From Bacteroidota bacterium (GTDB lineage Bacteria; Bacteroidota; Ignavibacteria; UBA10030; SZUA-254): DNA of 39,140 bases. The translations under genes and the position numbers were made by a program. The notes under the pieces were generated by a model. That model saw nothing but the letters and a program-made list of their open reading frames with translations, searched no databases and was not told the origin of the DNA. The stretch spans positions 1 to 39,140 of the forward strand of contig JAGVIE010000024.1 of the NCBI GenBank assembly GCA_020056225.1, read 5' to 3'. Below are positions 9,650-25,154 of the stretch, one piece after another (position 1 is the stretch's first letter; the number at the start of each line of letters is the position of its first letter).

Positions 9650-9672
9650 ATTTAATAACTTACGAGGTGTTT

Positions 9673-11010
9673 ATGAAATATTATAGATTACTTATTATCA
9701 CGTTAATAACATTAATTCTCTTTGGCGACTTGGCGTTTACTCAAGAGACTCTGGAGATAACAATCGAGCAGGCAATTGCTTTCGGGTTAGAGAACAGTAA
9801 ATCGCTCCACTCTTCGTTGATGAAAGTAGAATACTCTGATGCGAAGTCTAGCGAAACCAACACCCTGCTTTACCCGTCATTGAAATTTGGCGGATCGTAC
9901 ACGAGGTTAAGCGAAGTACCATCATTTCAAATAGGACCATTCGGACAGCTCATGCCCGAGAAAGTTACGGTATCTCAAGCAGTGTTTGATAACTACAACA
10001 TGCGGCTTACGCTTCAACAACCGTTGTTTACCGGGCTACGGCTTATCAACAGCTCGAAAGCGGCGAGCTATTCGGCAGAGGCGAGTGGGCAGGATTATCA
10101 AAAAGATAAGACAGATCTCATCTATAATGTCACCAATGCCTATTGGAGTCTATTCAAGGCGAATGAATTCAAAAAAGTTGTCGATGAGAATGTTGAACAG
10201 GTCAAAGCTCATCTCAAGGATGTACAAAATTTCTTTAATCAGGGAATTGTCACAAAAAATGAAGTTCTGAAGGTAGAAGTACAGCTATCCAATGTTCAAG
10301 TTCTTCAGATCGATGCTCAGAATAACGTTCAACTTGCAACAATAGGATTGAATAGTTTGATAGGGCTTCCTTTAGAAACGAAGCTTGACCTCTCATCGAA
10401 GGCAGAACAAACGGATAAACAGTATGATAATGTGAACACGCTCGTTCAAAAAGCAATCGATAATCGACCGGATATAAAATCCATGGAGCTTCGAGTGAAA
10501 GCGGGCGAAGCCGGCGTTTCAATAGCTCGTGCAGGTTGGTTCCCTCAAATTTATCTTGTAGGGAATTATATTTATGCCCGACCGAATCAGCGGATATTCC
10601 CAACGCAGGATAAGTTTAAAGACACATGGGATGTTTCGATCTCTGCGTCGCTTGATATTTGGAACTGGGGCACAACAATCTATCAAACTGATGAAGCACA
10701 AGCGCAGCTTGCTCAAGCAAAAGACGGTCTTGGACTTCTCAAGGATGGTATCACGCTTGAAGTAACTCAATGTTATTTGAATTTCAATCAATCGAAAGAG
10801 CGAATTGCAGTTGCAGAGAAAGGTGTCGGTCAGGCTGAGGAGAATTATCGCATCACGGATGAAAAATTCAAAGCCGGCTTGGCGCTGAATTCAGATTTGC
10901 TGGATGCGGAAGCCGCACTTATGCAGGTGAAGTTTAATTACATCCAGTCGCTGGTTGATTTTGAACTTGCTAATGCCCGTTTGCTGAAGGCACTTGGACA
11001 GGGTAAGTAG
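9673..11010 (+). CDS. TolC-family outer-membrane efflux protein
   Basis: The protein has about 445 residues when started at ATG 9673, which has GAGGTG just upstream; the open frame also has GTG at 9667, but that would overlap the ribosome site. An N-terminal signal peptide (KYYRLLIITLITLILFGDLAFTQ) precedes two OEP repeats rich in long alpha-helical, coiled-coil-forming segments. TolC proteins form the trimeric outer-membrane channel of tripartite pumps. It sits between the TetR gene and the HlyD-type adaptor, so it is probably the dedicated exit duct for the RND pump downstream. Confidence 0.92.
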   Translation: MKYYRLLIITLITLILFGDLAFTQETLEITIEQAIAFGLENSKSLHSSLMKVEYSDAKSSETNTLLYPSLKFGGSYTRLSEVPSFQIGPFGQLMPEKVTVSQAVFDNYNMRLTLQQPLFTGLRLINSSKAASYSAEASGQDYQKDKTDLIYNVTNAYWSLFKANEFKKVVDENVEQVKAHLKDVQNFFNQGIVTKNEVLKVEVQLSNVQVLQIDAQNNVQLATIGLNSLIGLPLETKLDLSSKAEQTDKQYDNVNTLVQKAIDNRPDIKSMELRVKAGEAGVSIARAGWFPQIYLVGNYIYARPNQRIFPTQDKFKDTWDVSISASLDIWNWGTTIYQTDEAQAQLAQAKDGLGLLKDGITLEVTQCYLNFNQSKERIAVAEKGVGQAEENYRITDEKFKAGLALNSDLLDAEAALMQVKFNYIQSLVDFELANARLLKALGQGK

Positions 11011-11060: not shown

Positions 11061-12125
11061 ATGAGAAAAAAAAGAGTTATTATCGTGTCGGTTATAATTA
11101 TAGCTGCGATTATTGCAATCTTATTTTATAACAAATCTCGCAGCACTTTAAAATCGAAAAGTGAAATACTCACCTCGATATCGGTTTCGGTGACGAAAGT
11201 TGAAAAACAAAAACTAGTCACAACACGTATGATGGTAGGAACGATTGCCGCATACAACGATGTCGCAATAATTTCAGAGACATCCGGAAAAGTTATCGCT
11301 GTGTACGCGGAAGTCGGACAACATGTATCAGCAAGCGCACCGATTGTTCAGGTTGACGATGAGCTAAAGAAAGCAGCATACATTTCAGCGGAAACGAACT
11401 ACGAGAAAGCTAAGAAGGACTTAGAACGGTTTGAATCATTGTACAAGCAAAATGCAGCAACCGATCAACAAATCGAGGGCGCGCGGCTTGCGGTAAAAGC
11501 AGCAGAGGCACAATACATCTCTGCGCGCAGGCAGTACAACGATACAAAAATCAGCACGCCTATTGCTGGAATCGTAACCTCTCGAAACGTAGATGTGGGG
11601 ACTTTTGTCTCAAACAATATGCTTGTGGCGAACGTTGTCGATATCTCGCGCCTCAAGGCAAAGATAAATGTTTCCGAAAGTGATGCATTTAGTTTGAAAG
11701 TTGGCGATAAAGTAGATATAACGACGGATGTCTATCCGAGTGTAAAGTATGCCGGTAAAATCAAATCAATCAGTTCAAAAGCCGATGAAGCACACACGTA
11801 TTCCGTTGAGGTTACGCTCGATAATTCCAAACAATATCCTCTCAAGGCAGGAATGTTCGGACGCATTTCATTTACAGCAAAAATGGACGGTAAAGTTCTT
11901 GCAATTCCACGTGAAGCCCTTGTCGGCAGCATTAAAACACCGCAGGTGTATATTGTAGATGGAGGTGTTGCCCGTCTCCGGAGTATTGTTGTCGGTTCGG
12001 AGATTGGAACAGCCATATCGGTTCTTGGCGGTTTGAACGAGGGAGACACCGTGGTTACAAACGGACAAAATAATCTTAAAGACAGCGTGGCCGTCACAAT
12101 CATGAAGGAGGATTTTGCAAAGTGA
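11061..12125 (+). CDS. HlyD/AcrA-type periplasmic adaptor of RND efflux pump
   Basis: This 354-residue protein has an N-terminal membrane anchor (about residues 4-23) after a basic MRKKR start, then a lipoyl-like half (SGKVIAVYAEVGQHVSASAPIVQVDD), a helical hairpin (about residues 105-160) and the second lipoyl half plus beta-barrel (DTKISTPIAGIVTSRNVDVG). This is the standard membrane-fusion-protein order. The C-terminal GLNEGDTVVTNGQNNLKDS is the usual membrane-proximal domain. There is no lipobox cysteine, so it is held by the transmembrane helix. An AAGGAA site supports the start. It joins the RND pump to the TolC channel. Confidence 0.93.
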   Translation: MRKKRVIIVSVIIIAAIIAILFYNKSRSTLKSKSEILTSISVSVTKVEKQKLVTTRMMVGTIAAYNDVAIISETSGKVIAVYAEVGQHVSASAPIVQVDDELKKAAYISAETNYEKAKKDLERFESLYKQNAATDQQIEGARLAVKAAEAQYISARRQYNDTKISTPIAGIVTSRNVDVGTFVSNNMLVANVVDISRLKAKINVSESDAFSLKVGDKVDITTDVYPSVKYAGKIKSISSKADEAHTYSVEVTLDNSKQYPLKAGMFGRISFTAKMDGKVLAIPREALVGSIKTPQVYIVDGGVARLRSIVVGSEIGTAISVLGGLNEGDTVVTNGQNNLKDSVAVTIMKEDFAK

Positions 12126-12164: not shown

Positions 12165-15100
12165 ATGACTATAACTGAATTATCAATAAAACGTCCAACA
12201 CTCGTCATCGTTGTATTTACTATCTTAGGCGTTCTGGGCTTGTTCAGCTACAACCAGTTGAAGTATGAACTGTTGCCCAAAATCACGCCTCCTTTTCTGG
12301 TGATCATCACAGTCTATCCGGGCGCATCACCGCAAGAGGTTGAAACTTCGGTAACTAAGGTGCTTGAAGACGCTGTTTCAGGAATCGATAAGATAGCAAC
12401 TGTATATGCTACATCGCAGGAAGGCGTTTCCATAGTATCATTGGAATTTTCAATGAAGGCAAGTATAAGTATTGCGCTTCAGGATGTGCAGAGGAAAGTG
12501 AACGAAGTTTCCGCCCAACTTCCAGCCGGATCAAAAACACCGTCGATAACAAAATTTGCGTTAGATGAACTTCCGGTTCTTCGGATGGGTGTAACTGCGA
12601 GTATGCCGTCGAGAGATTTCTATCAATTACTCGATGACCGGATTCAGCCGAGGCTTGCAAAACTTGCCGGGGTCGGGCAAATTACACTCGTAGGCGGCGA
12701 TGAGCGCGAGATTAAAGTAAATGTCGATCCGCAAAAACTCCGCTCGTATGGATTATCTCTTCTGCAGGTTACGCAGTTGGTTAAATCATCGAATATGGAT
12801 TTTCCGACAGGGAAGTTGAAAGACGGCGATTATCAATATATTATCCGGCTTGCAGGAAAATATAATTCAATCGAGGAATTAAGACGATTAGTCGTCGGGC
12901 AATCGAAGCAGGGAGGAGATATTCGTCTTAGCGATATCGCTGAAGTTGAAGATGGACGAAAGGATTACTCGACACTTAGCAGAATCAACGGTAAAACATC
13001 TATCGGCATACTGGTTCAAAAACAAGGTGAGGCAAACTCGGTGGAAGTCAGCCGGATTGTTAGAGCGGAACTCACAAAACTTGAAAAAGATTATTCCAAC
13101 ATCGGGCTAAAGTTTAACATAGCCCAGGATGGTTCTCTCTTTACAACCGAAGCGGCTGATGCGGTGAAACATGACCTTATGTTAGCGATCATTTTTGTTG
13201 CCGTAGTGATGCTTGCATTCCTTCACAGTATCCGGAATTCGATTATTGTGATGATTGCTATTCCAACATCGCTTGTTACAACATTCATTGCCGTCTATGC
13301 GTTCGGATTCACACTAAACCTGATGGTGCTTCTTGGTTTATCGCTTGTGATAGGTATTCTTGTAGATGATTCGATAGTCGTTCTCGAAAACATTTACCGT
13401 TATCTCGAAAAGGGAGATGAAAGGAAGAAAGCATCTCTCCGCGGACGAAACGAAATCGGTTTCGCAGCATTATCGATAACATTGGTTGATGTGGTTGTGT
13501 TCGTGCCGCTCACCTTAGTATCAGGCATAGTCGGCAATATCTTGCGCGAGTTTGCAATGGTCGTTGTTTTTTCAACGTTGACTTCACTGTTTGTTTCATT
13601 CACCATCACGCCGATGCTTGCTTCACGTTTTGCAAAATTAGAAAGGCAAACCCGTAAAACACTTATCGGCACATTTGCCGTTTGGTTCGAGTCACAGTAC
13701 CACAAGCTTGCGGCAGAATATCAAAAGATTCTTAAATGGAGTTTAATTCATCGCGGTAAAGTCGCGCTTCTCGCTCTCAGTTTATTCATCGCAACCATCG
13801 CGCTAGTGCCCCTTGGGTTCATCGGAACAGAATTTATGACGCCCGTTGATCGCGGTGAATTCACCGTAACGATGGAACTTCCGCCCGGTGCAACGCTCGA
13901 CTATACAAACTCCGTTGCACAACAGGCGGAAAAAATTGTATCGGCAATACCCGAAGTCCAAAAAATCTTCGTCAACATTGGTGCATCTACAGAAGGATTG
14001 ATTGGGCAGTCATCGAATAATGTCGCTGAAGTTAATGTTTCCATATTGCCGAAAGAAGAACGTGCACGTTCTACCGATGACATTAGCGGTGAGATTCGCA
14101 GTAAGATTTATAAAATTCCGGGTGTTAAAGTTCGTGTCAGCCCGATAGGAATTTTTGGTACGGCAAACCAATCACCGATTCAAATTGTTGTAAGCGGCAC
14201 TAATTACGATGAAGTTCGTGTTGCCGCGGGACAGTTATCCGAGATGGTCAAAGGAGTTCGAGGTACGGCAGACGTTCGTCTATCTTCGGAAGAAGGGAAA
14301 CCGGAAACACGCATCGATATTGACCGTGAGAAAATGGCAGACCTTGGCTTGACGCTCGCGGAGGTCGGGGCGGGATTGCGTACGGCGTTTAACGGTGACG
14401 ACGATTCGAAATTCAGGGATGGCGCCAATGAATATCCGATCAGGATTATTCTCGATCAATTCGACAGAACCAAAACGAGCGACATCGAGAATCTCACATT
14501 CGTGAACAAAAAAGGACAAATAATTGAATTGAAACAGTTTGCTCGCATGGCGGTCACCACCGGTCCTACAAAACTTCAACGGCAAGATCGCAATTACTCC
14601 GTTACCGTATTCTCGCAAGTCATCGGCAGGCCCTCAGGCGACGTTGCCGGAGACATCAAAAAGGAAGTCGCAAAGAATAGTTTACCTCCGGGCACAATCG
14701 TGACGTATCTTGGCGATGAAAAAAACCGCTCGGAGGGCTTTGGTGATTTGGGACTTGCGTTGATGGCGGCAATCTTGTTCGTCTATCTGATCATGGTCGC
14801 GCTTTTCGATTCATTTGTTTATCCGTTCATCGTATTATTCTCGATTCCGGTAGCGATGATAGGCGCCTTGCTGGCACTTGCGCTTACAGGTAAAGCGCTT
14901 AGTATCTTCACGATTCTCGGTATTATCATGCTTGTAGGACTTGTAAGCAAAAATGCAATATTACTTGTTGACCGCACTAACCAGATGCGTGCCGAACAGA
15001 AACTTTCCGTTCACGATGCATTGCTTGAAGCAGGCAACACACGATTGCGCCCGATTCTTATGACAACAGCATCTATGATTGTTGCCATGTTCCCGATAGC

Positions 15101-15341
15101 AACGAGTTTAAGCTCGGGTTCGGAGTGGAAGTCAGGTCTCGCGTGGGGATTGATCGGCGGATTGACAAGCTCGCTTCTCTTAACGCTTGTTCTTGTTCCG
15201 GTTGTTTATACTAAAGTTGATGAGTGGAAAGAAACCGTACCTGCATTCGTCATGAAGCTGTTACGAAGACCTATAAAGAAAAAAATTGAAGAACCGGTAC
15301 CGGACGATGTTGTTGGTGCTGTGGAGTTTGAGGGGAAATAA
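12165..15341 (+). CDS. RND-family efflux transporter permease (AcrB/HAE1-like)
   Basis: At 1058 residues this has full RND length, with 12 predicted membrane helices and two large periplasmic loops after TM1 and TM7. Proton-relay residues are conserved: the paired aspartates in TM4 (GILVDDSIVVLENIYR) and the TM10 lysine (GLVSKNAILLVDRTNQ), equivalent to Asp407/Asp408 and Lys940 of AcrB. It exchanges protons for substrates and is energised by proton-motive force. Substrates cannot be predicted, but the pattern is HAE1 (drug/hydrophobe) rather than heavy-metal type. It ends the efflux operon, and a hairpin with a T-tract follows. Confidence 0.95.
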   Translation: MTITELSIKRPTLVIVVFTILGVLGLFSYNQLKYELLPKITPPFLVIITVYPGASPQEVETSVTKVLEDAVSGIDKIATVYATSQEGVSIVSLEFSMKASISIALQDVQRKVNEVSAQLPAGSKTPSITKFALDELPVLRMGVTASMPSRDFYQLLDDRIQPRLAKLAGVGQITLVGGDEREIKVNVDPQKLRSYGLSLLQVTQLVKSSNMDFPTGKLKDGDYQYIIRLAGKYNSIEELRRLVVGQSKQGGDIRLSDIAEVEDGRKDYSTLSRINGKTSIGILVQKQGEANSVEVSRIVRAELTKLEKDYSNIGLKFNIAQDGSLFTTEAADAVKHDLMLAIIFVAVVMLAFLHSIRNSIIVMIAIPTSLVTTFIAVYAFGFTLNLMVLLGLSLVIGILVDDSIVVLENIYRYLEKGDERKKASLRGRNEIGFAALSITLVDVVVFVPLTLVSGIVGNILREFAMVVVFSTLTSLFVSFTITPMLASRFAKLERQTRKTLIGTFAVWFESQYHKLAAEYQKILKWSLIHRGKVALLALSLFIATIALVPLGFIGTEFMTPVDRGEFTVTMELPPGATLDYTNSVAQQAEKIVSAIPEVQKIFVNIGASTEGLIGQSSNNVAEVNVSILPKEERARSTDDISGEIRSKIYKIPGVKVRVSPIGIFGTANQSPIQIVVSGTNYDEVRVAAGQLSEMVKGVRGTADVRLSSEEGKPETRIDIDREKMADLGLTLAEVGAGLRTAFNGDDDSKFRDGANEYPIRIILDQFDRTKTSDIENLTFVNKKGQIIELKQFARMAVTTGPTKLQRQDRNYSVTVFSQVIGRPSGDVAGDIKKEVAKNSLPPGTIVTYLGDEKNRSEGFGDLGLALMAAILFVYLIMVALFDSFVYPFIVLFSIPVAMIGALLALALTGKALSIFTILGIIMLVGLVSKNAILLVDRTNQMRAEQKLSVHDALLEAGNTRLRPILMTTASMIVAMFPIATSLSSGSEWKSGLAWGLIGGLTSSLLLTLVLVPVVYTKVDEWKETVPAFVMKLLRRPIKKKIEEPVPDDVVGAVEFEGK

Positions 15342-15348
15342 AACCACG

Positions 15349-15375
15349 TCGTCCTGAGCAAAGTTGAAGGACGAT
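15349..15375. repeat. Intergenic palindromic repeat
   Basis: TCGTCCT (15349-15355) pairs perfectly with AGGACGA (15369-15375) across a 13-nt loop reading gagcaaagttga-like sequence. The pattern resembles the widespread CTGAGC-nn-GTCGAAGG intergenic repeat seen in many bacterial genomes. Part of a similar element is at 20386-20475. Confidence 0.55.
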
Positions 15376-15392
15376 GGATATTTTTAACATCA

Positions 15393-15428
15393 AAACCTTC
15401 AGGGTTTCTAAAACTTTGGAGGTTTTTT
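15393..15428 (+). terminator. Probable Rho-independent terminator after the efflux operon
   Basis: AAAACCT and AGGTTTT arms flank an inner AAACC...GGTTT hairpin, and the outer arm runs into a tract of seven T. It lies about 50 bp after the RND stop codon, where the plus-strand operon should end before the convergent minus-strand gene. Arm limits are approximate to about one base. Confidence 0.5.
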
Positions 15429-15466
15429 TGTAATACGGTCAGACAACGTGATTTGTAAAAAAGACG

Positions 15467-15515
15467 TCCCGCTTGCGACTTATAATAGATGCATTATTTT
15501 ATGGAGCACGCGGGA
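15467..15515. repeat. Split TCCCGC/GCGGGA inverted repeat
   Basis: TCCCGC (15467-15472) and GCGGGA (15510-15515) are inverted copies separated by 37 bp in the gap between the efflux operon and the GHKL-ATPase gene. The arms match those of the tight hairpin at 3037-3053, suggesting a related repeat interrupted by AT-rich sequence. Confidence 0.3.
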
Positions 15516-15589
15516 TGTAATGAGCACTACTGTTCATAAGATAAATCGAATGACTTTTTTACAATTGTTAGCTACAGTTGTGGCTCTGA

Positions 15590-18500
15590 TTAATTCTGTT
15601 CTGATTGCAAGACAAAGGACACAAACTCATCTATAGATTTTGCGGTACTCCAAACTGGTTCCTTAATCCGATAGCGTATTTTTGCTTCAGTCATATCTAT
15701 TTCGACGTCACCAGCCACCGAAACAGTATCTGATGTTAATTCCTGAAGTGATGATACTTCACTAACTTTCACTCTGAGCAGTTCACCTATGTTCGTGACA
15801 AAACGGGCTTTTGACCTGATAGTTTCATCTGTCGGTTCTGCATCATCAAGGGGAACCACGCACAAAGCAAATGATGCTTGATTGTTAACAGCGGTCTCTC
15901 CCTGTTTGCTCGTCATAGTCACGAAGGGTTTAAGAGTCGATTTGATTTCGACCAATATTTTCTTTGTGCCACCCTGAATCTTTATCAATTGCTCTTGGTT
16001 GTCATGGATAAAGTCGTTCTCGATTTCGTAGTCGCTGCCAATACCAGTGCGTGATATATCGAAACCTAACTGTTGGTATTGGTCGCTTCGAAAAATAGCC
16101 TCAAATATCTTCTCAACTTTGGAGCCCATCTCTTGATTGGCCTTGACCCGTAGACGGTCTCTTTTATGCTTCTCAAATATCAGGAGCAAATCTGTTGATG
16201 GCATTCCGCTTGTGAGCATCGCAATAACTGCTTTATCCAACTCCTGTCTGGTATTTTCATCACCCTTTGCAAGAATATTTCTTAGCAAATCTCCAGCGCT
16301 AACTCCCAATCGACTTAGTAATAAAGCAGGTTTGTCCTCATTGAGCTTTGAAATTAAATCCGGCTCGCTTTCAAAAAGGGACGCAAGATTGATGGATGAA
16401 GGTTTATCAGCTTTATTTTTTGAAACATAAATCCATGAATTCTTTTTGAGATACAGTAGCCAATGCGATGGATAGACACGGTGGGTAGATCCGCATCCAC
16501 AAGTTACGTCGATAGGTTGCGACCAACTAGAATCAACTTCAACGACGCAGTTAAGAAGAAACTTGAGAAATTCCACGGTCCTCGATTTCGTTTTTCTAAC
16601 TCTCTCATAGATCCCTTTGCCTTCCAAATCGAGGTAAGCAATTCGCATCAGATGAATGTTCTCTACAAGATGTTCTTTCTCTTCAGATTGAGAAATCTCG
16701 TTTGTTACTTTCAAAGGCTCGACAAGTAAATACTCAAGTTCGTCACCCGATAACTTTGTTTGTTGAGCAAAAATTGGATTGGAGTATATTAACCCATTCT
16801 CTGCTAAGTACTGCCAATTCTCAGAGCTAATGCTTTGACTGTAAATCAACGAGAAAATGAAATCTTTTGGGAAAACATTCGAAAAAGATTCAGGCACATT
16901 TTGCCATAAACATATAGGCAGCAACAGTTTCTGGTGTTCTGACAAACGAGCGATTGCTACACGTTCTTTCTCATCGGCCTTGTGGCAAACGATAGGAAAG
17001 TCTTTTAATAAGTCAGCTCGCTTGTGCATGACTAACCAAGAAAAAAGAGAAATGCTCGTTTCTTGAATGTTACTTCTCTCAAAATCAGTTTCACTCCAAT
17101 TCTTGACCATTGGCACAATATCCCTTAACAAATCTTCTTGTTTCTTGATGTTTAAGAGTGAGGGATCGAGTGAGATGTCTCGGCGCACAAGCCTTTCTCT
17201 GAAATCTATACCAACTTGAATACCTATATCCTTGAGTGATTCTTCAATGTTAGCATCAAGATACAAGTTGTTAGATTTATTTTGGAGAATTCCGTTTTGA
17301 TTAGGAATGAGAGCATGATCAGCCAGCAATGTCATTTGATTCTGCGATACAATATACCCGAGGAGATTATTGAGCCAAGAAATAGAATCAACAACTCCCG
17401 TTGCCGACGATTTGTTCAGAGTCACCGTCAAGGCGTCAAGATTCCGCAAAGCAGAAACGTGTTTGCAGAGTTTTAGTAACGTAAGTGAGCTTTCCAGATT
17501 TTCGAGTTTGGTATCCAATAAGTCAGCCCACATTTTGCTAGCCGATAACCAGTGATCTGTGTGAGTCTTTGCAGAGATTTCATCGGGAAATACTTGGAAT
17601 GATAGATCCCAAAAAATTTCAATGGGTAAGTCAACCGGGAAAAGAGATTTTCTTGGTGAGTTGATGTCGCCGCTTTGGTTTTCGACGAGACTGATGTCTA
17701 ACAATTGTTGCAAAAGTATTCGTAGGATTCCATTATACCAATTAGCGTCCAGGCCTTTCTGGCTTGTCTTTCCAATTTGAGTTAGATTGAAGAGATTTTT
17801 CCATTTCAGTTCTGAACAGCGGCGAACAAGCGACAAATAAAGATTGCTGGCTTGCTCGATGATCCTCTTATTTGCCTTGATGTCGTCAGTCGTATCTTCG
17901 CCAAGAAAAAGTCCATCTCGTTCTGGCTTTGGCTTGAAGTCACAACTATTTATGATTGCAGGAAAAGAAAAGTCCTCGGTTCCGAAAAGAGGAAAGTCGA
18001 AAAAGAGGCGAGGTATGTCGCTTTGAAGTGCCTTAATTTCGTACTTGTTTTCCGTAATCTCAACAATTTCAACTGCAACTGATGTCCGTCCATCAGTCCC
18101 AACAGCGATTGTCATTCTACTCGGTTTATGATGATCTCTAAGATGCTCTACGGAAATGATGCGAATCAGTCCATCTTCGTTCTCCGGTACTGCTAACTTC
18201 TTGAACGAGTGAGAAATCCCATTTGTCTTAAGAGTGATTGAATCAAATTTGCGATTGAAGCACAAAACAAACGGAATCAGTCTCGGTAAGTCCTCGACAC
18301 CTTTATTTGCTATAACAATGGCTTGTGCATCGAGAGGATAGCGATATTGTGTTGTAAAGCCATCAGCTACGTGATAGTCGTTTGCTTGGCTCCTCAAGAA
18401 TTCTTTCGAAGAGGACTCCATTGCAGTCTCAATCTGGTCTACTGTTTTGCCACTCCTATCCAAGGTGAATTGAAAGTGCTTCTGATTGTTCAGGAGACTT

Positions 18501-18865
18501 GAGATAATCACCTGCTTCGATAGGAGGTGTGTCGCAAGAAATCCAGTACCAAACTTACCAGTCTTGTCAGACAACCCCTTCTTTGTTGAACCGTGATAAA
18601 TGAGATGGATTATTTCTTCGTCCGTAAACGCTATCCCGTTATGTCTGAACATTAGTGCTTCATTTGTAAATTCGATCTCAACAGAGACCCTCTTGCTATC
18701 GGGAACAGAGTCCTTTGCATTTTGGAGCAACTCCCAAAGCCAACGCCTTTCATGTTCACCACGCTCGTTAAACAGTTTATCTAATTCATCGAAGACTGTT
18801 TGGGCATTATTCTCTCGGAATACTATAAGTCTCTTTTCTTCAAATATTTTTTCGTATTCGTTCAT
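15590..18865 (-). CDS. Sacsin/Hsp90-like GHKL ATPase with C-terminal nuclease-like (NOV_C/DUF3883-type) region; candidate defence protein
   Basis: This 1091-residue protein starts with a GHKL ATPase domain of the sacsin N-terminal type: N-box WELLQNAKDS (residues 44-53; Glu45, Asn49), G1 box FRHNGIAFTDEEI (73-85, with His in place of the usual Asp), GSTKKG (92-97) and GKFGTGF (103-109). The middle (about 200-900) is long and mostly helical without motifs I know. Near the C-terminus, GSDYEIE (from 943; Asp945), KKILVEIKST (Glu973, Lys975) and TMTSKQGETAV form a D...E-x-K pattern like PD-(D/E)xK nucleases and DUF3883/NOV_C domains. Proteins pairing such ATPases with nuclease domains are common in defence loci; the role here is inferred. 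It stands alone, with AT-rich DNA and a TATAAT-like box upstream (18914-18919). No signal peptide is present. Confidence 0.75.
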   Translation of the reverse strand: MNEYEKIFEEKRLIVFRENNAQTVFDELDKLFNERGEHERRWLWELLQNAKDSVPDSKRVSVEIEFTNEALMFRHNGIAFTDEEIIHLIYHGSTKKGLSDKTGKFGTGFLATHLLSKQVIISSLLNNQKHFQFTLDRSGKTVDQIETAMESSSKEFLRSQANDYHVADGFTTQYRYPLDAQAIVIANKGVEDLPRLIPFVLCFNRKFDSITLKTNGISHSFKKLAVPENEDGLIRIISVEHLRDHHKPSRMTIAVGTDGRTSVAVEIVEITENKYEIKALQSDIPRLFFDFPLFGTEDFSFPAIINSCDFKPKPERDGLFLGEDTTDDIKANKRIIEQASNLYLSLVRRCSELKWKNLFNLTQIGKTSQKGLDANWYNGILRILLQQLLDISLVENQSGDINSPRKSLFPVDLPIEIFWDLSFQVFPDEISAKTHTDHWLSASKMWADLLDTKLENLESSLTLLKLCKHVSALRNLDALTVTLNKSSATGVVDSISWLNNLLGYIVSQNQMTLLADHALIPNQNGILQNKSNNLYLDANIEESLKDIGIQVGIDFRERLVRRDISLDPSLLNIKKQEDLLRDIVPMVKNWSETDFERSNIQETSISLFSWLVMHKRADLLKDFPIVCHKADEKERVAIARLSEHQKLLLPICLWQNVPESFSNVFPKDFIFSLIYSQSISSENWQYLAENGLIYSNPIFAQQTKLSGDELEYLLVEPLKVTNEISQSEEKEHLVENIHLMRIAYLDLEGKGIYERVRKTKSRTVEFLKFLLNCVVEVDSSWSQPIDVTCGCGSTHRVYPSHWLLYLKKNSWIYVSKNKADKPSSINLASLFESEPDLISKLNEDKPALLLSRLGVSAGDLLRNILAKGDENTRQELDKAVIAMLTSGMPSTDLLLIFEKHKRDRLRVKANQEMGSKVEKIFEAIFRSDQYQQLGFDISRTGIGSDYEIENDFIHDNQEQLIKIQGGTKKILVEIKSTLKPFVTMTSKQGETAVNNQASFALCVVPLDDAEPTDETIRSKARFVTNIGELLRVKVSEVSSLQELTSDTVSVAGDVEIDMTEAKIRYRIKEPVWSTAKSIDEFVSFVLQSEQN

Positions 18866-18985
18866 TCTAATTTCTTAGTGTAATTTCGGAGCCACAATTG
18901 CGCATACTTCGTAATTATATATTGCATTATTACTCTTTTTAATAAATCAAATATAAATCTTGTTCCTTCCAAAATCAACACAAAC

Positions 18986-20308
18986 TCACACTTGCTTCAC
19001 CGCATGCCGCAGCCGGTACAAGTGAAACAGTAAGACCACCGCACCGAAGAGCAAATATGACTGGATGAAATTAAAATATGTTGCCGCCGTCTTATCGGTG
19101 AACTGGAAAAAATTGCTCGAAAGAAAAAATGTAATGGCAAGTAAAATTATCCCGCGCTTCCTGAGATCGTAAACCCCGAGCGTTGCAGGTAAAGCAACCG
19201 CAAATATGGGAAGCAGTATGCCGTAATGGTGTTCCCAAGCCACAGGTGATGCAATGGTGAAGCTAAGTACAGCAAGAGATAGATCGAATACATCGGCGTT
19301 TTTGTATTCTCTTCGCCGCCAGATCAATGCAAATCCAATTAGTGCAATGGAAGTCAAGAGTGTTCCCCAATAAACTATCGGATTGTATGGTGGAAAACTC
19401 CGCGCAACCCACTCAAGGTTGTTTCCGTTGAACAGCATCCGGTTCAGCAATCCGTTCATAGATTGGTTCGGAAAGTACGATTCACCATGTTGTGCGATGA
19501 ATGTGACAGCATTGAAGTAATCGAGATTGTTTTCCAATCCGTACGCGGCAACCGAGATCGCGGCAAATACAACAACGGCAATAACCAAGGCGAGAACAAA
19601 CTTCTTTTGCTTTCGTAAAAGTCCCCAGAGCAGCAGCAGTATAAGCTGCGGCTTAATGATACAAATTAATCCTGCAAGAAAACCGGAAAGTTTTTTTCTA
19701 TGTGTCAACCATGCGAGCGCCATGCCGGTGAAAAGAACATCGATCCACACCTGCACCTGTCCGAGCACGTACGCTTTGAGCAAAGGATAGAACGTCAGCG
19801 TAAATGCCGTGCACAAAAAAAGGAGGATAATTTTTTCAGCCGGACTTGTAATATCGAGCTTTGAGTACCGGCTTATACTCATGGTAAGAATTCGCCAAAG
19901 CAAAAGTGCCATCAGAAGTATTCCAACCCACGAGATAGTGTTAAGAAGATCGTCGTGTATAAAGCCGTCGGGTGAAAGCTCTCTCAATGGCTCAAGAAGT
20001 AAAAGACTTGTGAGCGGGTATTGAAATTTTACTTTCTGGTCGAAGAAGAGAACGGTATAAAGCGGCTTATCATTGAACAGATGACGGAGATCGGGGGTGT
20101 GGAGATATTGCAATGCCTGCCGCATAGGCGCCCATGAATCGTTGTATGCCTCACGTTCAAAAAAAGCGCGGGTGTAATGTAAAGTTGTCGTGTCGCTGCT
20201 GCCGAGCAGAATCGGAAGATTGATCGCCGCACCGTTGAGGATCGCGAAAAGAATCAGGTACCGCGTGAATGAACTCCATCGTTGTAATATTTTCTGAAAC
20301 GCTGCCAT
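18986..20308 (-). CDS. GT87-like (DUF2029) polyprenol-phosphate-sugar membrane glycosyltransferase
   Basis: This 440-residue protein has about ten hydrophobic helices. The first extracytoplasmic loop carries NDSWAPMRQALQYLH...PLYTVLFFDQKVKFQYPLTSLLLLEPL, the pattern of GT87/PimE-type enzymes, where an acidic residue in this loop is catalytic. Such enzymes use lipid-linked sugars on the outer face of the inner membrane. Sugar and acceptor are unknown. No other polysaccharide genes are adjacent; neighbours are the GHKL gene upstream by strand and the divergent mqnD. The N-terminus (MAAFQKILQRWSSFTRY) is basic and cytoplasmic. Confidence 0.75.
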   Translation of the reverse strand: MAAFQKILQRWSSFTRYLILFAILNGAAINLPILLGSSDTTTLHYTRAFFEREAYNDSWAPMRQALQYLHTPDLRHLFNDKPLYTVLFFDQKVKFQYPLTSLLLLEPLRELSPDGFIHDDLLNTISWVGILLMALLLWRILTMSISRYSKLDITSPAEKIILLFLCTAFTLTFYPLLKAYVLGQVQVWIDVLFTGMALAWLTHRKKLSGFLAGLICIIKPQLILLLLWGLLRKQKKFVLALVIAVVVFAAISVAAYGLENNLDYFNAVTFIAQHGESYFPNQSMNGLLNRMLFNGNNLEWVARSFPPYNPIVYWGTLLTSIALIGFALIWRRREYKNADVFDLSLAVLSFTIASPVAWEHHYGILLPIFAVALPATLGVYDLRKRGIILLAITFFLSSNFFQFTDKTAATYFNFIQSYLLFGAVVLLFHLYRLRHAVKQV

Positions 20309-20385
20309 TTTCTGAATGTACTAATTATCATTTCCACTAACAAATAAAAACCTTTGAAAAATTGTTTTATACTACTAAAGACTGT

Positions 20386-20475
20386 CACGCTGAGACTTCG
20401 GCGTGAGCTCAGTCGAACGCTTGTCGAAGCGTGGAACTATAGTGATATGTCATGGTTCTACAGGCTCACCATGAC
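20386..20475. repeat. Cluster of three intergenic hairpin repeats
   Basis: Three hairpins occur in a row: CACGC/GCGTG (20386-20390 with 20401-20405), ACGCTT-gtcg-AAGCGT (20417-20432) and GTCATGGT/ACCATGAC (20449-20456 with 20468-20475, a perfect 8-bp stem). The words CTTGTCGAAG and ACAGGCTCACCATGAC resemble abundant intergenic repeats of many bacteria. The cluster fills the gap between the divergent glycosyltransferase and mqnD genes. Confidence 0.6.
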
Positions 20476-20534
20476 TACAATTTTATTTTTAAGTCGATGA
20501 GAATTTCGTTATCTTTTGTTCAACAAATCATGGA

Positions 20535-21401
20535 ATGAAAAATATGCAGGACAGAATTATACACGTTGGTCACAGTCCAGATCCGGACGATGCGTTCATG
20601 TTTTACGGACTTGCCTCCGGTAAGGTGAAGTTGGAAGGAATCCGCATCGAGCATTTTCTTGAAGATATACAATCGCTGAATGAAAGGGCAATGCAGGTAG
20701 GGGCGTATCAGGATACGCCCTTGTTGGAAGTAACGGCTATCTCGGCTCATGCTTTTCCATTCGTTGCCGATAAATATTGGATAATGCGAACCGGCGCGAG
20801 CATGGGCGAAGGGTATGGCCCGGTTATCGTTTCCAGAAAATATAAATCGCTCGATGAACTGAAAGGAAAAGTCGTCGGCACACCCGGTCTGCTCACAACG
20901 GCGACACTTCTGTTCAAAATTTTTACAGAAGGAATCAATAACATTGACTTGCCATTTGATAAAATCATGGATGCAATAGATGATGGCAAGATAGATGCGG
21001 GCTTACTGATTCATGAAGGACAAATCACGTACCAATCGCTTGGCTATAATAAAATTTTAGATTTTGGTGAGTTGTGGGAAAAAGAAGCAAACGGACTTCC
21101 GCTTCCGCTCGGTCTCGATGTTGTGCGAAAAGATTTAGGCGAAAACATGGCTCGAAAACTTTCACACGGATTGAAAGAAAGCATAAAATACGGCTACGAT
21201 CATCAGGATGAAGCAATTCCCTACGCGATGAAGTGGGGGCGCGGTATCGATTACAAGCTTGGGGAAAAATTTGTGAAAATGTATGTCAGCGAACTGACAA
21301 TTGATATGGGTGAGCAAGGCAGGAAAGCGTTGGAGTTGTTGTTCCAAAAAGGATTTGAAAAAGGTTTGATACCCAAAATTCCGGAAATCAACCTTTATTG
21401 A
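20535..21401 (+). CDS. mqnD: 1,4-dihydroxy-6-naphthoate synthase (futalosine pathway)
   Basis: This 288-residue protein is of the periplasmic-binding-protein fold used by MqnD. The N-terminal HVGHSPDPDDAFMFYGLASGK and the central LLIHEGQITY (His160, the likely catalytic histidine) are diagnostic. MqnD converts cyclic dehypoxanthine futalosine to 1,4-dihydroxy-6-naphthoate. It lacks a signal peptide, as expected for a cytoplasmic enzyme. ATG 20535 is chosen; ATG 20544 is also possible. It is on the opposite strand from the other mqn genes, separated from mqnC by a convergent methyltransferase. Confidence 0.95.
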   Translation: MKNMQDRIIHVGHSPDPDDAFMFYGLASGKVKLEGIRIEHFLEDIQSLNERAMQVGAYQDTPLLEVTAISAHAFPFVADKYWIMRTGASMGEGYGPVIVSRKYKSLDELKGKVVGTPGLLTTATLLFKIFTEGINNIDLPFDKIMDAIDDGKIDAGLLIHEGQITYQSLGYNKILDFGELWEKEANGLPLPLGLDVVRKDLGENMARKLSHGLKESIKYGYDHQDEAIPYAMKWGRGIDYKLGEKFVKMYVSELTIDMGEQGRKALELLFQKGFEKGLIPKIPEINLY

Positions 21402-21434
21402 GATGCACGAGTTCTTCATGTCTCTCTATACCAA

Positions 21435-22058
21435 ATGACTATCAAACAAGCATATACCGATTGGTCATCAAGCTACGATTCAGATCGGAACCTCACGCGC
21501 GATTTAGATGAGCGGGTCACGAGAGACACATTAATGAATTTGCGTTGTAAATCAATTGTTGAAATCGGATGCGGGACCGGCAAGAATACTTCCTTCCTTT
21601 CACAAATCGGTGAGAAGGTTCATGCCATCGATTTTTCAGAAGGCATGATCAATAAAGCGAAAGGTAAGATACAGTTACACAATGTTACTTTCTCTATAGC
21701 CGACATCACAAAACAATGGCACATTAAAGATGAGTCTGCCAATTTGATTGCCTGCAACCTCGTGTTAGAGCATGTTGAAAATCTTCCCTTCATATTTTCT
21801 GAAGCGTCTCGTACTTTAGTTAAGAACGGACGCTTCTTTGTTTGCGAGCTTCATCCATTTCGACAATACGAGGGCACAAAAGCACACTTTCAACGAGATC
21901 AAAATACCACCGAGATTCAAGCGTTTGTACATCATATCTCAGATTTCATAGAGGCAGGAAAAAATAACGGATTAACACCTGAGAGTTTCAAAGAGTGGTG
22001 GCATGAAGAAGATCAAAACAAACCGCCAAGGCTTGCATCGTTTATGTTTGTGAAATGA
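21435..22058 (+). CDS. Class I SAM-dependent methyltransferase
   Basis: This 207-residue Rossmann methyltransferase has SAM motif I in VEIGCGTGKNTSFL (about residues 41-54), an acidic residue ending the next strand (HAIDFSEGMINKAK) and a post-motif LIACNLVLEHVENLPFIFSEASRTLVKNG, as in UbiE/BioC-like enzymes. It starts 33 bp after mqnD on the same strand, so the two are probably co-transcribed. That raises the possibility of a quinone-pathway role, but the family is broad and its short length and sequence do not show MenG identity. It converges with mqnC, with only 30 bp between stops. Confidence 0.85.
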   Translation: MTIKQAYTDWSSSYDSDRNLTRDLDERVTRDTLMNLRCKSIVEIGCGTGKNTSFLSQIGEKVHAIDFSEGMINKAKGKIQLHNVTFSIADITKQWHIKDESANLIACNLVLEHVENLPFIFSEASRTLVKNGRFFVCELHPFRQYEGTKAHFQRDQNTTEIQAFVHHISDFIEAGKNNGLTPESFKEWWHEEDQNKPPRLASFMFVK

Positions 22059-22088
22059 ATCTAATTGAACATTACTAAGAGCCGTTCC

Positions 22089-23183
22089 TTACATTGCTTC
22101 TGCTTTTTCAAATATCTTCAAAGTATTATAGAGTGTATCTCTCTGAACCGGCGTGAATCCGGAATCCTGAATTAGTTGAATCACTTCAGCCACCGTTGTC
22201 TTGTTTACGAAGTCGGCTTCAGCGTGAACGTTTTCTTCGTAGAGCGTCCCGCCGAAATCATCAGCGCCGAAGTGAAGCGCAACCTGTCCGATCTTTTTTC
22301 CTTCAGAAAACCACGATGCCTGTATATGATCGAAGTTATCGAGATAAATTCTTGAGAGTGCGAGAATCTGCAAGTAACGTGTTGATGATGCGTATGTAGG
22401 AATGATTTTATGAAGCGGTGTATTCCCCGGCTTGAAACTCCATGGTATGAACGCCGTGAAGCCGTGATATTCATCCTGAAGCTGTCGAATTACTTCGAGA
22501 TGCTCGATGATATCTTCATCTGTTTCAAGATGGCCGTACATCATTGTTGCCGTCGTCTTGTATCCGATCTTGTGTGCTTCCAGCATGACGTTCAGCCAAT
22601 CGTCGGATGTACCTTTAAGGTGACTGATTTTTTTCTTCACGCGATCTGATAAAATCTCCGCACCACCACCGGGGATTGTTCTCAACCCGGCATCCCACAA
22701 CTTCCGCAAAACTTCTTGAATCGTAAACTCCGATGCTTGCGACATTCCGATGATTTCTGAAGTTGAAAAGAAATGCGGATGAACTTCCGGCACCTCTTCT
22801 ATTGTCCGCTTGACTAGTTCAAGATAATAATCGAACGGGAGAGCGGGGTTAACACCACCTTGAAGCAGCACGGTAGTAACACCGTTAGCCGCCGCTGTTT
22901 TAAAATTTCGAATCATCTCATCGACAGAATAAGTATACTCACCTGCTTCACCGGGGTGACGGTAGAATGCACAAAAGATGCAGTCGATGTTGCAAATATT
23001 AGTATAGTTTGGATTTGTATCGACAACAAATGTAACTTGCTGCTTGGGATTTTTGCGATAACGAATCTCGTTCGCAAGCTCACCGAAATCGAGAAGCTCT
23101 ACTTTTTGAAGAAGCGATAATCCTTCCTCTCTATTAATTCTTTTCCCTATTTTAACCTCTTCGATTATATCCAATAATTTCAT
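22089..23183 (-). CDS. mqnC: Cyclic dehypoxanthine futalosine synthase (radical SAM)
   Basis: MqnC is a radical SAM enzyme that cyclises dehypoxanthine futalosine. Starting at ATG 23183 it has 364 residues, the family length. The [4Fe-4S] motif is NICNIDCIFCAFYR (Cys64, Cys68, Cys71; C-x3-C-x2-C), preceded by VTFVVDTNPNYTN, and the GLRTIPGGGAEIL segment is typical. Two ATGs are adjacent (23186, 23183); the second has better spacing from AAAGGAAA. The frame runs further upstream to 23228, but those residues come from an intergenic repeat and are not typical of the family. It is the last gene of the minus-strand menaquinone cluster. Confidence 0.95.
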   Translation of the reverse strand: MKLLDIIEEVKIGKRINREEGLSLLQKVELLDFGELANEIRYRKNPKQQVTFVVDTNPNYTNICNIDCIFCAFYRHPGEAGEYTYSVDEMIRNFKTAAANGVTTVLLQGGVNPALPFDYYLELVKRTIEEVPEVHPHFFSTSEIIGMSQASEFTIQEVLRKLWDAGLRTIPGGGAEILSDRVKKKISHLKGTSDDWLNVMLEAHKIGYKTTATMMYGHLETDEDIIEHLEVIRQLQDEYHGFTAFIPWSFKPGNTPLHKIIPTYASSTRYLQILALSRIYLDNFDHIQASWFSEGKKIGQVALHFGADDFGGTLYEENVHAEADFVNKTTVAEVIQLIQDSGFTPVQRDTLYNTLKIFEKAEAM

Positions 23184-23189
23184 CATTTT

Positions 23190-23244
23190 CCTTTGCGATC
23201 TTCGCGACCTTTGCGAGAAACATGTCACGCAAAGCCCGCAAAGG
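23190..23244. repeat. Nested CTTTGCG/CGCAAAG repeat between mqnE-mqnA and mqnC
   Basis: CCTTTGCG occurs at 23190-23197 and CTTTGCG at 23209-23215, with inverted CGCAAAG at 23228-23234 and CCGCAAAGG at 23236-23244. The 23209-23234 pair forms a 7-bp stem with a 12-nt loop. It fills the 75-bp gap upstream of mqnC and supplies its purine-rich ribosome site on the minus strand. Confidence 0.6.
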
Positions 23245-23258
23245 ACGCAACGTTTGCT

Positions 23259-25154
23259 TTATATTTTTATCTCTTTCTGTTCTAATAATTTTCTGAATTG
23301 CATCATGGCTTTTCGCTCCTGCTCGCCAAGCCGGTAGTTGAAGCCCTCAAGATATTCCTTCGTCTCGTTCTTCGTTAAACCGATTTTCTTTCCGTGTGAA
23401 TAACCAATAATACCAAGATTAACTTCAGACTTCTCGAGTGATGTTGAAATCATTTCTTTCAATTCTTCTCTACGCTCTCCGCTCAATGCTTTTCTACACG
23501 CCCAAACAGCGAATACAAACGGCAGCTTTTGCCAATCGTACCACTCTTTCGCAAGATCGAAGACAAGTTCAAATCCATTCAATCCTATCTTATTATGTTT
23601 CAGCGCTTCATCGCCGATCAATAGCACAGCGTCAAACATCGAATAATCATTCACCCCCGGATGTAATCTTTCTGGTATAACCTGCACCCTATATTTATTT
23701 TCCAATAAGACGCTCAACAGTTGTACCGACGTTGCCGTCTCATCCGTGATTCCGATTTTCTTGCCGTTCAATCCAGCCCAACCCTCTTTCGAAAACAGCA
23801 TCACGCTCTTTACCTGATCACGCGTGGCAATGCACCAAGGAAGTAATTCCAGACTTTCTTCCTGTTCAAAATAATCCATCAGCGAGAATAATCCTGCATC
23901 GAGTTGTCCCTGTTTGCTCAACATGCCCATGCGCCGCGGTGCGACGGGAAGAATCTTGAATCCGCCTGCGGCGGACTTTTCCCGATTATGATAGAACGGT
24001 ACAGAATTTAGATATGGAATTTTTCCGATTACATTTTCAGAATAAACATTCAGCGGATTGTAAAACGCATCCCGCTCAACGGGAATCTTCCCGGCATCTT
24101 TTATAATCTTAATGATTTGATCTTTTGCGAGCTTCATCGGACTAACGGCGCCGGCATCGTGGGCAATGCGTTCCTGTCCGACAGTCCCATCGATGTCATC
24201 CGCACCGAAGTTGAGTGCAACCGAAGCGACTTCTTCAGTCAGCATCACCCAATATGCTTTGATGTGGGAAATGTTATCGAGCATAAGTCGTGATACTGCA
24301 ATAGTTTTCAGATCATCTATAGCTGATGTGAATTGCCTATGAGATTTTCCGCCAGAGGCGGATCCGTCTCCGACGGAGATTCCCGTATCACCCGGCTGGA
24401 ATGCAAGCGGTATGAACGAAAGAAATCCGCCTGTTTCGTCCTGTGCTTCTCGGAGTTTTATCATGTGTATGAGACGCTCTTCAAGCGTTTCAATATGTCC
24501 ATAAAGCATTGTGCAGTTTGTTGGAATGCCGAGCTTGTGCGCTGTTTTATGAACTTCGAGATAACCTTTGGCTCCAATTTTTTGAGGGAATAGAAGTTTT
24601 CGCACTCGCTCAGTGAAAATCTCAGCACCGCCACCGGGCATTGTTCGCAATCCGGCTGACTGTAATTGTTTTAAAACTTCTTCGATAGATAGCTTGAATT
24701 TCTTGTGGAAGAAATCTATCTCAACCGCCGTGTAAGCCTTAACGTCTGCTTCGGGAAATTTTTCGTGAATTTTTCTAACGATGTCGAGGTAACGTTCCCA
24801 TTTCCAATCGGGGGGCATACCGCCGGTGATGTGGACTTCTCGAATCTCAGGAGTAATGTGTGCAAGTATATTCTCGGTTGTCATCTCATAAGCATCCGGC
24901 TCACCTTTTTTCTTGGCGAAGTCGCAGAACTTGCACGAGAGAACACAAACATTTGTATGCTCGATTTTCTGATTGAGCACGAAGTACACAGCATAGCCGC
25001 TTTTTTGCTGCTGGACAAAGTTTGCCATCTTGCCAAGCGCGATGATGTCGTTTGTCTTGAAGAGAACAAGTCCGTCTTCCAGCGAGAGACGTTCACCGTG
25101 CTGGAGTTTTCGCCAGATTGGAATTAATTGTTTATCACGAAAGCTAAATGTCAT
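23259..25154 (-). CDS. mqnE-mqnA: Aminofutalosine synthase (MqnE) fused to chorismate dehydratase (MqnA)
   Basis: The 631 residues hold two Mqn enzymes. Residues 1 to about 365 are a radical SAM aminofutalosine synthase with HTNVCVLSCKFCDFAKKKG (Cys70, Cys74, Cys77), GLRTMPGGGAEIF and DDLKTIAVSRLMLDN. From about residue 372 (IGKIPYLNSVPFYHN) to the end is a chorismate dehydratase of the MqnA binding-protein fold, including DAGLFSLMDYF and GKKIGITDETATSVQLLSVLL. MqnA makes 3-enolpyruvylbenzoate from chorismate and MqnE joins it to SAM-derived adenosyl, so the fusion links successive steps. Three 15-bp palindromes are inserted in frame (residues 260-269 and 394-398). No stop or frameshift separates the halves. 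Confidence 0.93.
   Translation of the reverse strand: MTFSFRDKQLIPIWRKLQHGERLSLEDGLVLFKTNDIIALGKMANFVQQQKSGYAVYFVLNQKIEHTNVCVLSCKFCDFAKKKGEPDAYEMTTENILAHITPEIREVHITGGMPPDWKWERYLDIVRKIHEKFPEADVKAYTAVEIDFFHKKFKLSIEEVLKQLQSAGLRTMPGGGAEIFTERVRKLLFPQKIGAKGYLEVHKTAHKLGIPTNCTMLYGHIETLEERLIHMIKLREAQDETGGFLSFIPLAFQPGDTGISVGDGSASGGKSHRQFTSAIDDLKTIAVSRLMLDNISHIKAYWVMLTEEVASVALNFGADDIDGTVGQERIAHDAGAVSPMKLAKDQIIKIIKDAGKIPVERDAFYNPLNVYSENVIGKIPYLNSVPFYHNREKSAAGGFKILPVAPRRMGMLSKQGQLDAGLFSLMDYFEQEESLELLPWCIATRDQVKSVMLFSKEGWAGLNGKKIGITDETATSVQLLSVLLENKYRVQVIPERLHPGVNDYSMFDAVLLIGDEALKHNKIGLNGFELVFDLAKEWYDWQKLPFVFAVWACRKALSGERREELKEMISTSLEKSEVNLGIIGYSHGKKIGLTKNETKEYLEGFNYRLGEQERKAMMQFRKLLEQKEIKI
23961..23975. 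repeat. 15-bp palindromic unit inside the MqnA half
   Basis: TCCGCC-TGC-GGCGGA is a perfect 6-bp stem with a 3-nt loop. On the coding strand it is read as TCC-GCC-GCA-GGC-GGA, giving SAAGG at residues 394-398. It lies in a loop soon after the start of the MqnA domain and keeps the frame because it is 15 bp long. Confidence 0.75.
24348..24377. repeat. Two tandem 15-bp palindromic units inside the MqnE half
   Basis: TCCGCC-AGA-GGCGGA (24348-24362) is directly followed by TCCGTC-TCC-GACGGA (24363-24377). On the coding strand they read SVGDG then SASGG, residues 260-269, in the loop after FQPGDTG of the radical SAM domain. Both have the same codon phase as the unit at 23961-23975. Confidence 0.78.

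Follow-up and report, generated by a model that had tools for sequence, protein, structure and literature searches.

A Tiamat (TmtA) family protein with a GHKL ATPase and a predicted C-terminal PD-(D/E)xK nuclease domain, a candidate single-gene defence system in a Bacteroidota bacterium

The open reading frame (ORF) at positions 15590..18865, on the reverse strand of the 39,140-nucleotide stretch of DNA analysed here (the window), encodes a protein of 1091 amino acids, which by a full-length profile match belongs to the Tiamat (TmtA) family. The match to the TmtA profile of PADLOC, PDLC03967 (E=3.4e-204, 679 bits), aligns residues 1-1085 of the protein with positions 1-1056 of the 1063 in the profile. 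We take this TmtA to be the single-gene Tiamat anti-phage system of Millman et al. 2022. Tiamat is counted among the defence systems of unknown mechanism (PMC12926258; PMC10482375), and is almost always chromosomal in Actinobacteria (PMC10482375). The ORF, which has an ATG start and no internal stop codon, is real, and the original prediction, a lone GHKL ATPase with a C-terminal nuclease-like region that might be a single-gene defence system, is confirmed in its observations, largely as they were made, and supported in its interpretation. An ATPase with a predicted C-terminal PD-(D/E)xK nuclease and a candidate role in single-gene defence are supported by the TmtA profile, the fold, the catalytic set, the distribution and the defence neighbours of relatives, with the amendment that, judged from the profile, the tmtA-like gene is an additional and itself ordinary member of a known family and not a new system.

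The protein resembles Tiamat in being the product of a single gene and in matching the profile over its full length, including the C-terminal nuclease part; it differs in its identity of only about 20-34% to the relatives retrieved and in that the sampled members of its lineage are otherwise without the gene. The same profile was also matched by all 31 nuclease-type relatives. In keeping with membership of Tiamat, the gene is single and has no obligate partner, as seen from the genes of the window and the neighbours of 16 relatives, and it encodes an ATPase domain with intact catalytic motifs, as seen from 69 relatives and the predicted fold. A close parallel in architecture is VcSduA, a Shedu protein that acts alone and has an N-terminal GHKL ATPase, a clamp-like middle and a C-terminal PD-(D/E)xK nuclease, with a gating role proposed (PMC12137116). 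The ATPase, middle and nuclease stand in the same order in the present protein, but the nuclease of VcSduA is DUF4263, whereas the tail found here is NOV_C/Hjc-like. Membership of Shedu (SduA) itself is ruled out, since no DUF4263 was seen in Pfam scans with a threshold of E<=0.1 and the Shedu models in PADLOC gave no match to the protein at E<=1.

The N-terminal half of the protein is predicted to form a complete GHKL ATPase followed by a transducer. A sacsin-type GHKL domain had been proposed from the letters of the sequence, and the NCBIfam model P_loop_sacsin (NF047352) indeed matched residues 40-121 with 69.4 bits against a cut-off of 50, the Pfam HATPase_c match being sub-threshold. From this match, the conserved motifs and a fold match beginning at residue 17-20, the ATPase domain (sacsin/Hsp90-type) was placed at residues about 18-205 (18252..18814, reverse strand). 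Its motifs are an N-box (W44-E45-L46-x-Q48-N49-A50-x-D52), H75-N-G77 and G103-K-F-G106-T-G108, and the residues W44, E45, N49, D52, G103, G106, G108, H113 and R137 are identical in all 69 relatives. In GHKL enzymes with the pattern E-x3-N, the glutamate is the catalytic base and the asparagine a magnesium ligand; E45 and N49 should therefore, by this pattern, serve in these two roles. The presence of RHNG instead of the usual D-x-G motif, pointed out previously, was borne out (FRHNG at residues 73-77, RHNG at 74-77); it proved to be no oddity, as H75 is kept in 67 of the 69 relatives, and comparison of the sequences indicates that H-N-G is a hallmark of the family, its normal form rather than a sign of decay. 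With the remaining motif residues intact as well, a degenerate ATPase is ruled out. The similarity to the sacsin N-terminal (SRR/Hsp90-like) family NF047352 lies in an ATP-binding domain above the curated cut-off, while the present protein differs in having H-N-G for D-x-G, a transducer and a nuclease tail; HEPN and DnaJ domains were not found in it.

An AlphaFold2 model of the whole protein, built with 31 sequences (pLDDT 83.9, pTM 0.61), was compared with known folds by VIA-align, which matched topo VI-B with Z 15.6 over 276 residues (model residues 20-354), Hsp90 with Z about 15 and MORC3 with Z 13.8, as well as GyrB. These folds delimit a transducer (S5-like) domain at residues about 205-355 (17801..18252, reverse strand), which holds the near-invariant R316 (68 of 69 relatives). 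As S5 domains usually supply a basic finger (PMC2292703), R316 could be a candidate arginine or basic finger; a search among the relatives for HtpG, for aligning R316 with the catalytic arginine of Hsp90, found only one. The GHKL plus S5/transducer module is also that of the MORC/paraMORC ATPases of restriction-modification (R-M) loci (PMC2292703), from which the present gene differs in having no adjoining methyltransferase or other R-M partner. The long middle that had been described as free of recognised motifs thus begins with the transducer recognised through structure comparison, which leaves residues about 356-916 (16118..17800, reverse strand) as the middle region proper. This region is mainly helical and confidently modelled over most of its length, and is a candidate sensor or linker. 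A conserved stretch, CxCxxxHxxxPxxWL in the alignment consensus, lies at about residues 787-805.

The C-terminus is predicted to adopt a PD-(D/E)xK nuclease fold with an intact active site, at residues about 916-1091 (15590..16121, reverse strand), with E918, D945, E973-x-K975 and Q988 as its characteristic residues. The last 213 residues, folded alone by AlphaFold2 with 26 sequences (pLDDT 84.7), matched archaeal Hjc Holliday-junction resolvases best in Foldseek (1gef, E=1.1e-4), and VIA-align superimposed the model on the Hjc structure 2eo0 with Z 11.3 over 118 residues at an rmsd of 2.9; SPARDA nuclease subunits, RecU and restriction enzymes ranked behind Hjc. The core alpha-beta fold of the class is thus present in the predicted model, and the acidic and ExK residues are conserved. 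The nuclease-like region foreseen by the original prediction, for which the lack of any nuclease fold was to be the refuting outcome, has accordingly been given a fold, and the D945 and E973-x-K975 that it singled out are present. N49, D52, G103, G106, G108, D945, E973 and K975 are all invariant in 31 aligned homologues that are only 19-29% identical to the query, so that neither the ATPase nor the nuclease motifs can be put down to chance. In a wider set of 38 nuclease-tailed relatives, G914, E973, K975 and Q988 are kept in all, and E918 and D945 in 37. Likeness to archaeal Hjc comprises the predicted fold and the acidic/ExK active-site set, the differences being a sequence identity of about 20% and the fusion to an ATPase. 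NOV_C (PF13020, DUF3883) reached 17.3 bits against a gathering cut-off of 22.1 on the protein itself, while the C-termini of relatives matched NOV_C in 23 of 26 cases at E<=0.1 and Mrr_cat in three. When a C-terminal profile was searched against the sequences of solved structures, most of the matches were helix artefacts from designed proteins, and Hjc/ST1444 was matched weakly.

The tails of the family are not all alike. When the tails of 73 proteins were classed with profile models built in this analysis, 38 were of the nuclease type, 24 were a short domain marked by 'VVRPSDxGEVIIYY', five were canonical NOV_C and six were none of these. One of the six (L002) shares the ExK motif, as judged by eye and from the alignment, and the C-terminal end of another protein (L070) is NOV_C-like; the two were given these labels for a tree calculated from the N-terminal 580 residues. 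On that tree at least six tail changes are needed, against 24 for shuffled labels, and two or three changes per tail label follow from the starred branches alone; as a quick tree with long branches, it leaves the exact number of changes uncertain. Tails have thus been exchanged among relatives that share the same ATPase core. Among the proteins scanned, the match to the TmtA model runs through to the model's end in the nuclease-tailed ones and is partial in those with other tails. The short C-terminal domain, of the form 'VVRPSDxGEVIIYYxSEKDTLD...ELWVDNG', takes the place of the nuclease in L006-L008, L051, L054, L060, L066, L074, L076 and L089.

Homologues of the gene are not confined to housekeeping contexts. 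None was found in 59 other genomes of the same family or order, and the TmtA model matched in 24 of 395 genomes of the phylum, about nine of the matches being strong. Among 84,980 species genomes scanned, relatives of full length turned up in Planctomycetota, Chloroflexota, Gemmatimonadota, Poribacteria, Bacteroidota and Pseudomonadota, and phyla are mixed on the tree. Five relatives' loci hold known or candidate defence genes within a few genes, namely Septu PtuB in Pedobacter (L042), SspC in Chryseobacterium (L036), a type IIG R-M enzyme (L047), a DrmD-like helicase (L049) and a candidate PDC-M68B (L034). The argument from neighbourhoods relies on these five loci only and not on the pooled count, in which 114 neighbours hit 289 PADLOC models and 114 control ORFs hit 45, as the models overlap and the control was not taxon-matched. 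No Pfam family recurs in more than three of the 114 neighbours of 16 relatives, and hence no obligate partner is required by tmtA. Carriage by phages or viruses is ruled out, with no match among 50,697 phage records and none by a viral-contig scan; plasmid matches cover the N-terminal half of the protein only. In a genome of the same phylum (L005:1489-4572), a tmtA homologue beside a UvrD-like helicase gene is broken by TAG and TAA into three frames, an apparent decay of the system as read from its sequence.

In the window, the tmtA-like gene lies between an RND efflux set (outer-membrane protein, 9667-11010; membrane fusion protein, 11061-12125; AcrB-like protein, 12165-15341) and a GT87 glycosyltransferase (18986-20308), beyond which menaquinone (mqn) genes follow from 20535 onward. 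It therefore stands alone, as had been claimed, and these neighbours do not make up a defence island, which counts against a defence reading. No methyltransferase or R-M operon adjoins it in the window, the small methyltransferase at 21435-22058 being of a generic class I type and lying beyond mqnA, so that a paraMORC R-M unit is not formed here. The same genome has, elsewhere (L125:254-2973; contig C60 near 66753), a probable paraMORC-type restriction-modification unit, in which a DNA adenine methyltransferase-like ORF is followed directly by the gene of another GHKL protein, 520 amino acids long and with a canonical DNGNG box. The stretch 20535-25154 holds three genes with two VitK2_biosynth and two radical-SAM CofH/MqnC-type domains; one of them (23259-25154) fuses a radical-SAM with a VitK2_biosynth domain, an unusual fusion among futalosine-type menaquinone genes.

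Between the efflux gene and mqnA (15341-20535), gene content varies among the related genomes L110, L108 and L111, and genes may turn over at this site. In L110 both ends are retained, the efflux gene at 74% identity and mqnA at 80%, but in place of tmtA and GT87 unrelated genes stand between them; together with the patchy distribution of tmtA, this fits horizontal spread. The GC content of tmtA (40.8%, against 41-46% in the other genes of the window) and its codon use are ordinary, and foreign codon usage as a strong signal of recent transfer is thereby dismissed. The AT-rich flanks reported earlier are real (38% and 27.5% GC, against 43% across the window), whereas the accompanying inverted repeat (15575-15589/18886-18900, 13 of 15 positions matching) was equalled in six of 60 shuffles of both flanks and is within chance. 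Nor does its sequence recur in the genome, as the end of a repeated mobile element would, and mobile-element ends flanking tmtA are ruled out on these two grounds. A consensus scan predicted a terminator-like stem of 16 pairs between the efflux operon and tmtA (15392..15426, forward strand), and a sigma-70-like promoter match (10 of 12 positions) was predicted upstream of tmtA (18914..18942, reverse strand), a region in which the count of promoter-like sites is about the shuffled mean.

In our judgement, the protein is quite probably a one-gene anti-phage protein of the Tiamat type, in which ATP-driven closure of a clamp would pair the C-terminal nuclease and license it on DNA upon a trigger sensed in phage infection. 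The GHKL domain would bind ATP and dimerise, and the transducer would relay the closure of the clamp to the remaining chain; a trigger of phage infection would be sensed, probably via the middle region, upon which two Hjc-like PD-(D/E)xK domains would pair and cut DNA, whether that of the phage or, if the mode were abortive, that of the cell itself. Because no methyltransferase accompanies the gene, control over self and non-self would be expected from the trigger or from DNA structure and not from DNA marking. An ATP-gated nuclease working alone, in analogy to the proposal for VcSduA, is the best reading; the relatives with non-nuclease tails count against it, since they imply other modes of action of the ATPase core besides DNA cleavage. 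It is possible, if rather less than probable, that the nuclease is an abortive-infection effector, activated by a phage protein to degrade DNA indiscriminately and kill the cell instead of restricting phage DNA selectively. Such a role would suit the lack of a modification gene or self-marking partner beside tmtA or its relatives, as well as the swapping of tails on a constant ATPase core that is typical of sensor-effector suicide systems, but the Hjc-like fold suggests a preference for DNA structure and hence a possible selectivity. We hold it unlikely, though worth stating, that Tiamat is a sensor-effector platform joining an Hsp90/topo VI-like ATP clamp to interchangeable tails (Hjc-like nuclease, canonical NOV_C or short non-nuclease), with the nuclease form aimed at branched DNA of phage replication; if true, the targeting of branched DNA would explain how a lone nuclease spares its host without methylation.

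Two readings outside defence may be set against the ATP-gated anti-phage nuclease. The strong Hsp90/sacsin likeness of the N-terminal half and the existence of relatives with non-nuclease tails would suit a chaperone or scaffold whose C-terminal fold binds nucleic acid without cutting it; this we consider distinctly improbable, for retention of the full PD-(D/E)xK site across the nuclease-tailed relatives, at about 20-30% identity, argues for catalysis. Hjc-like folds also serve housekeeping resolvases, which counts against assuming a defence substrate, and a housekeeping or stress enzyme of DNA repair or recombination, i.e. an Hjc-like resolvase gated by the GHKL clamp, would agree both with Holliday-junction resolvases as the nearest nuclease folds and with neighbours in the window that are not defence genes. 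It is nevertheless highly improbable in view of the absence of the gene from all 59 family and order relatives, the scattered phyla intermixed on the tree, the variable gene content at the site, the defence neighbours of relatives and the anti-phage family to which the matched profile belongs.

The joining of an Hsp90-like ATP clamp to a predicted DNA-cutting domain suggests how a defence made of one protein could work. For Tiamat, a system that has been named and left unexplained, a nuclease fold with an invariant site, a GHKL-transducer clamp and exchangeable tails together offer a concrete and testable mechanism.
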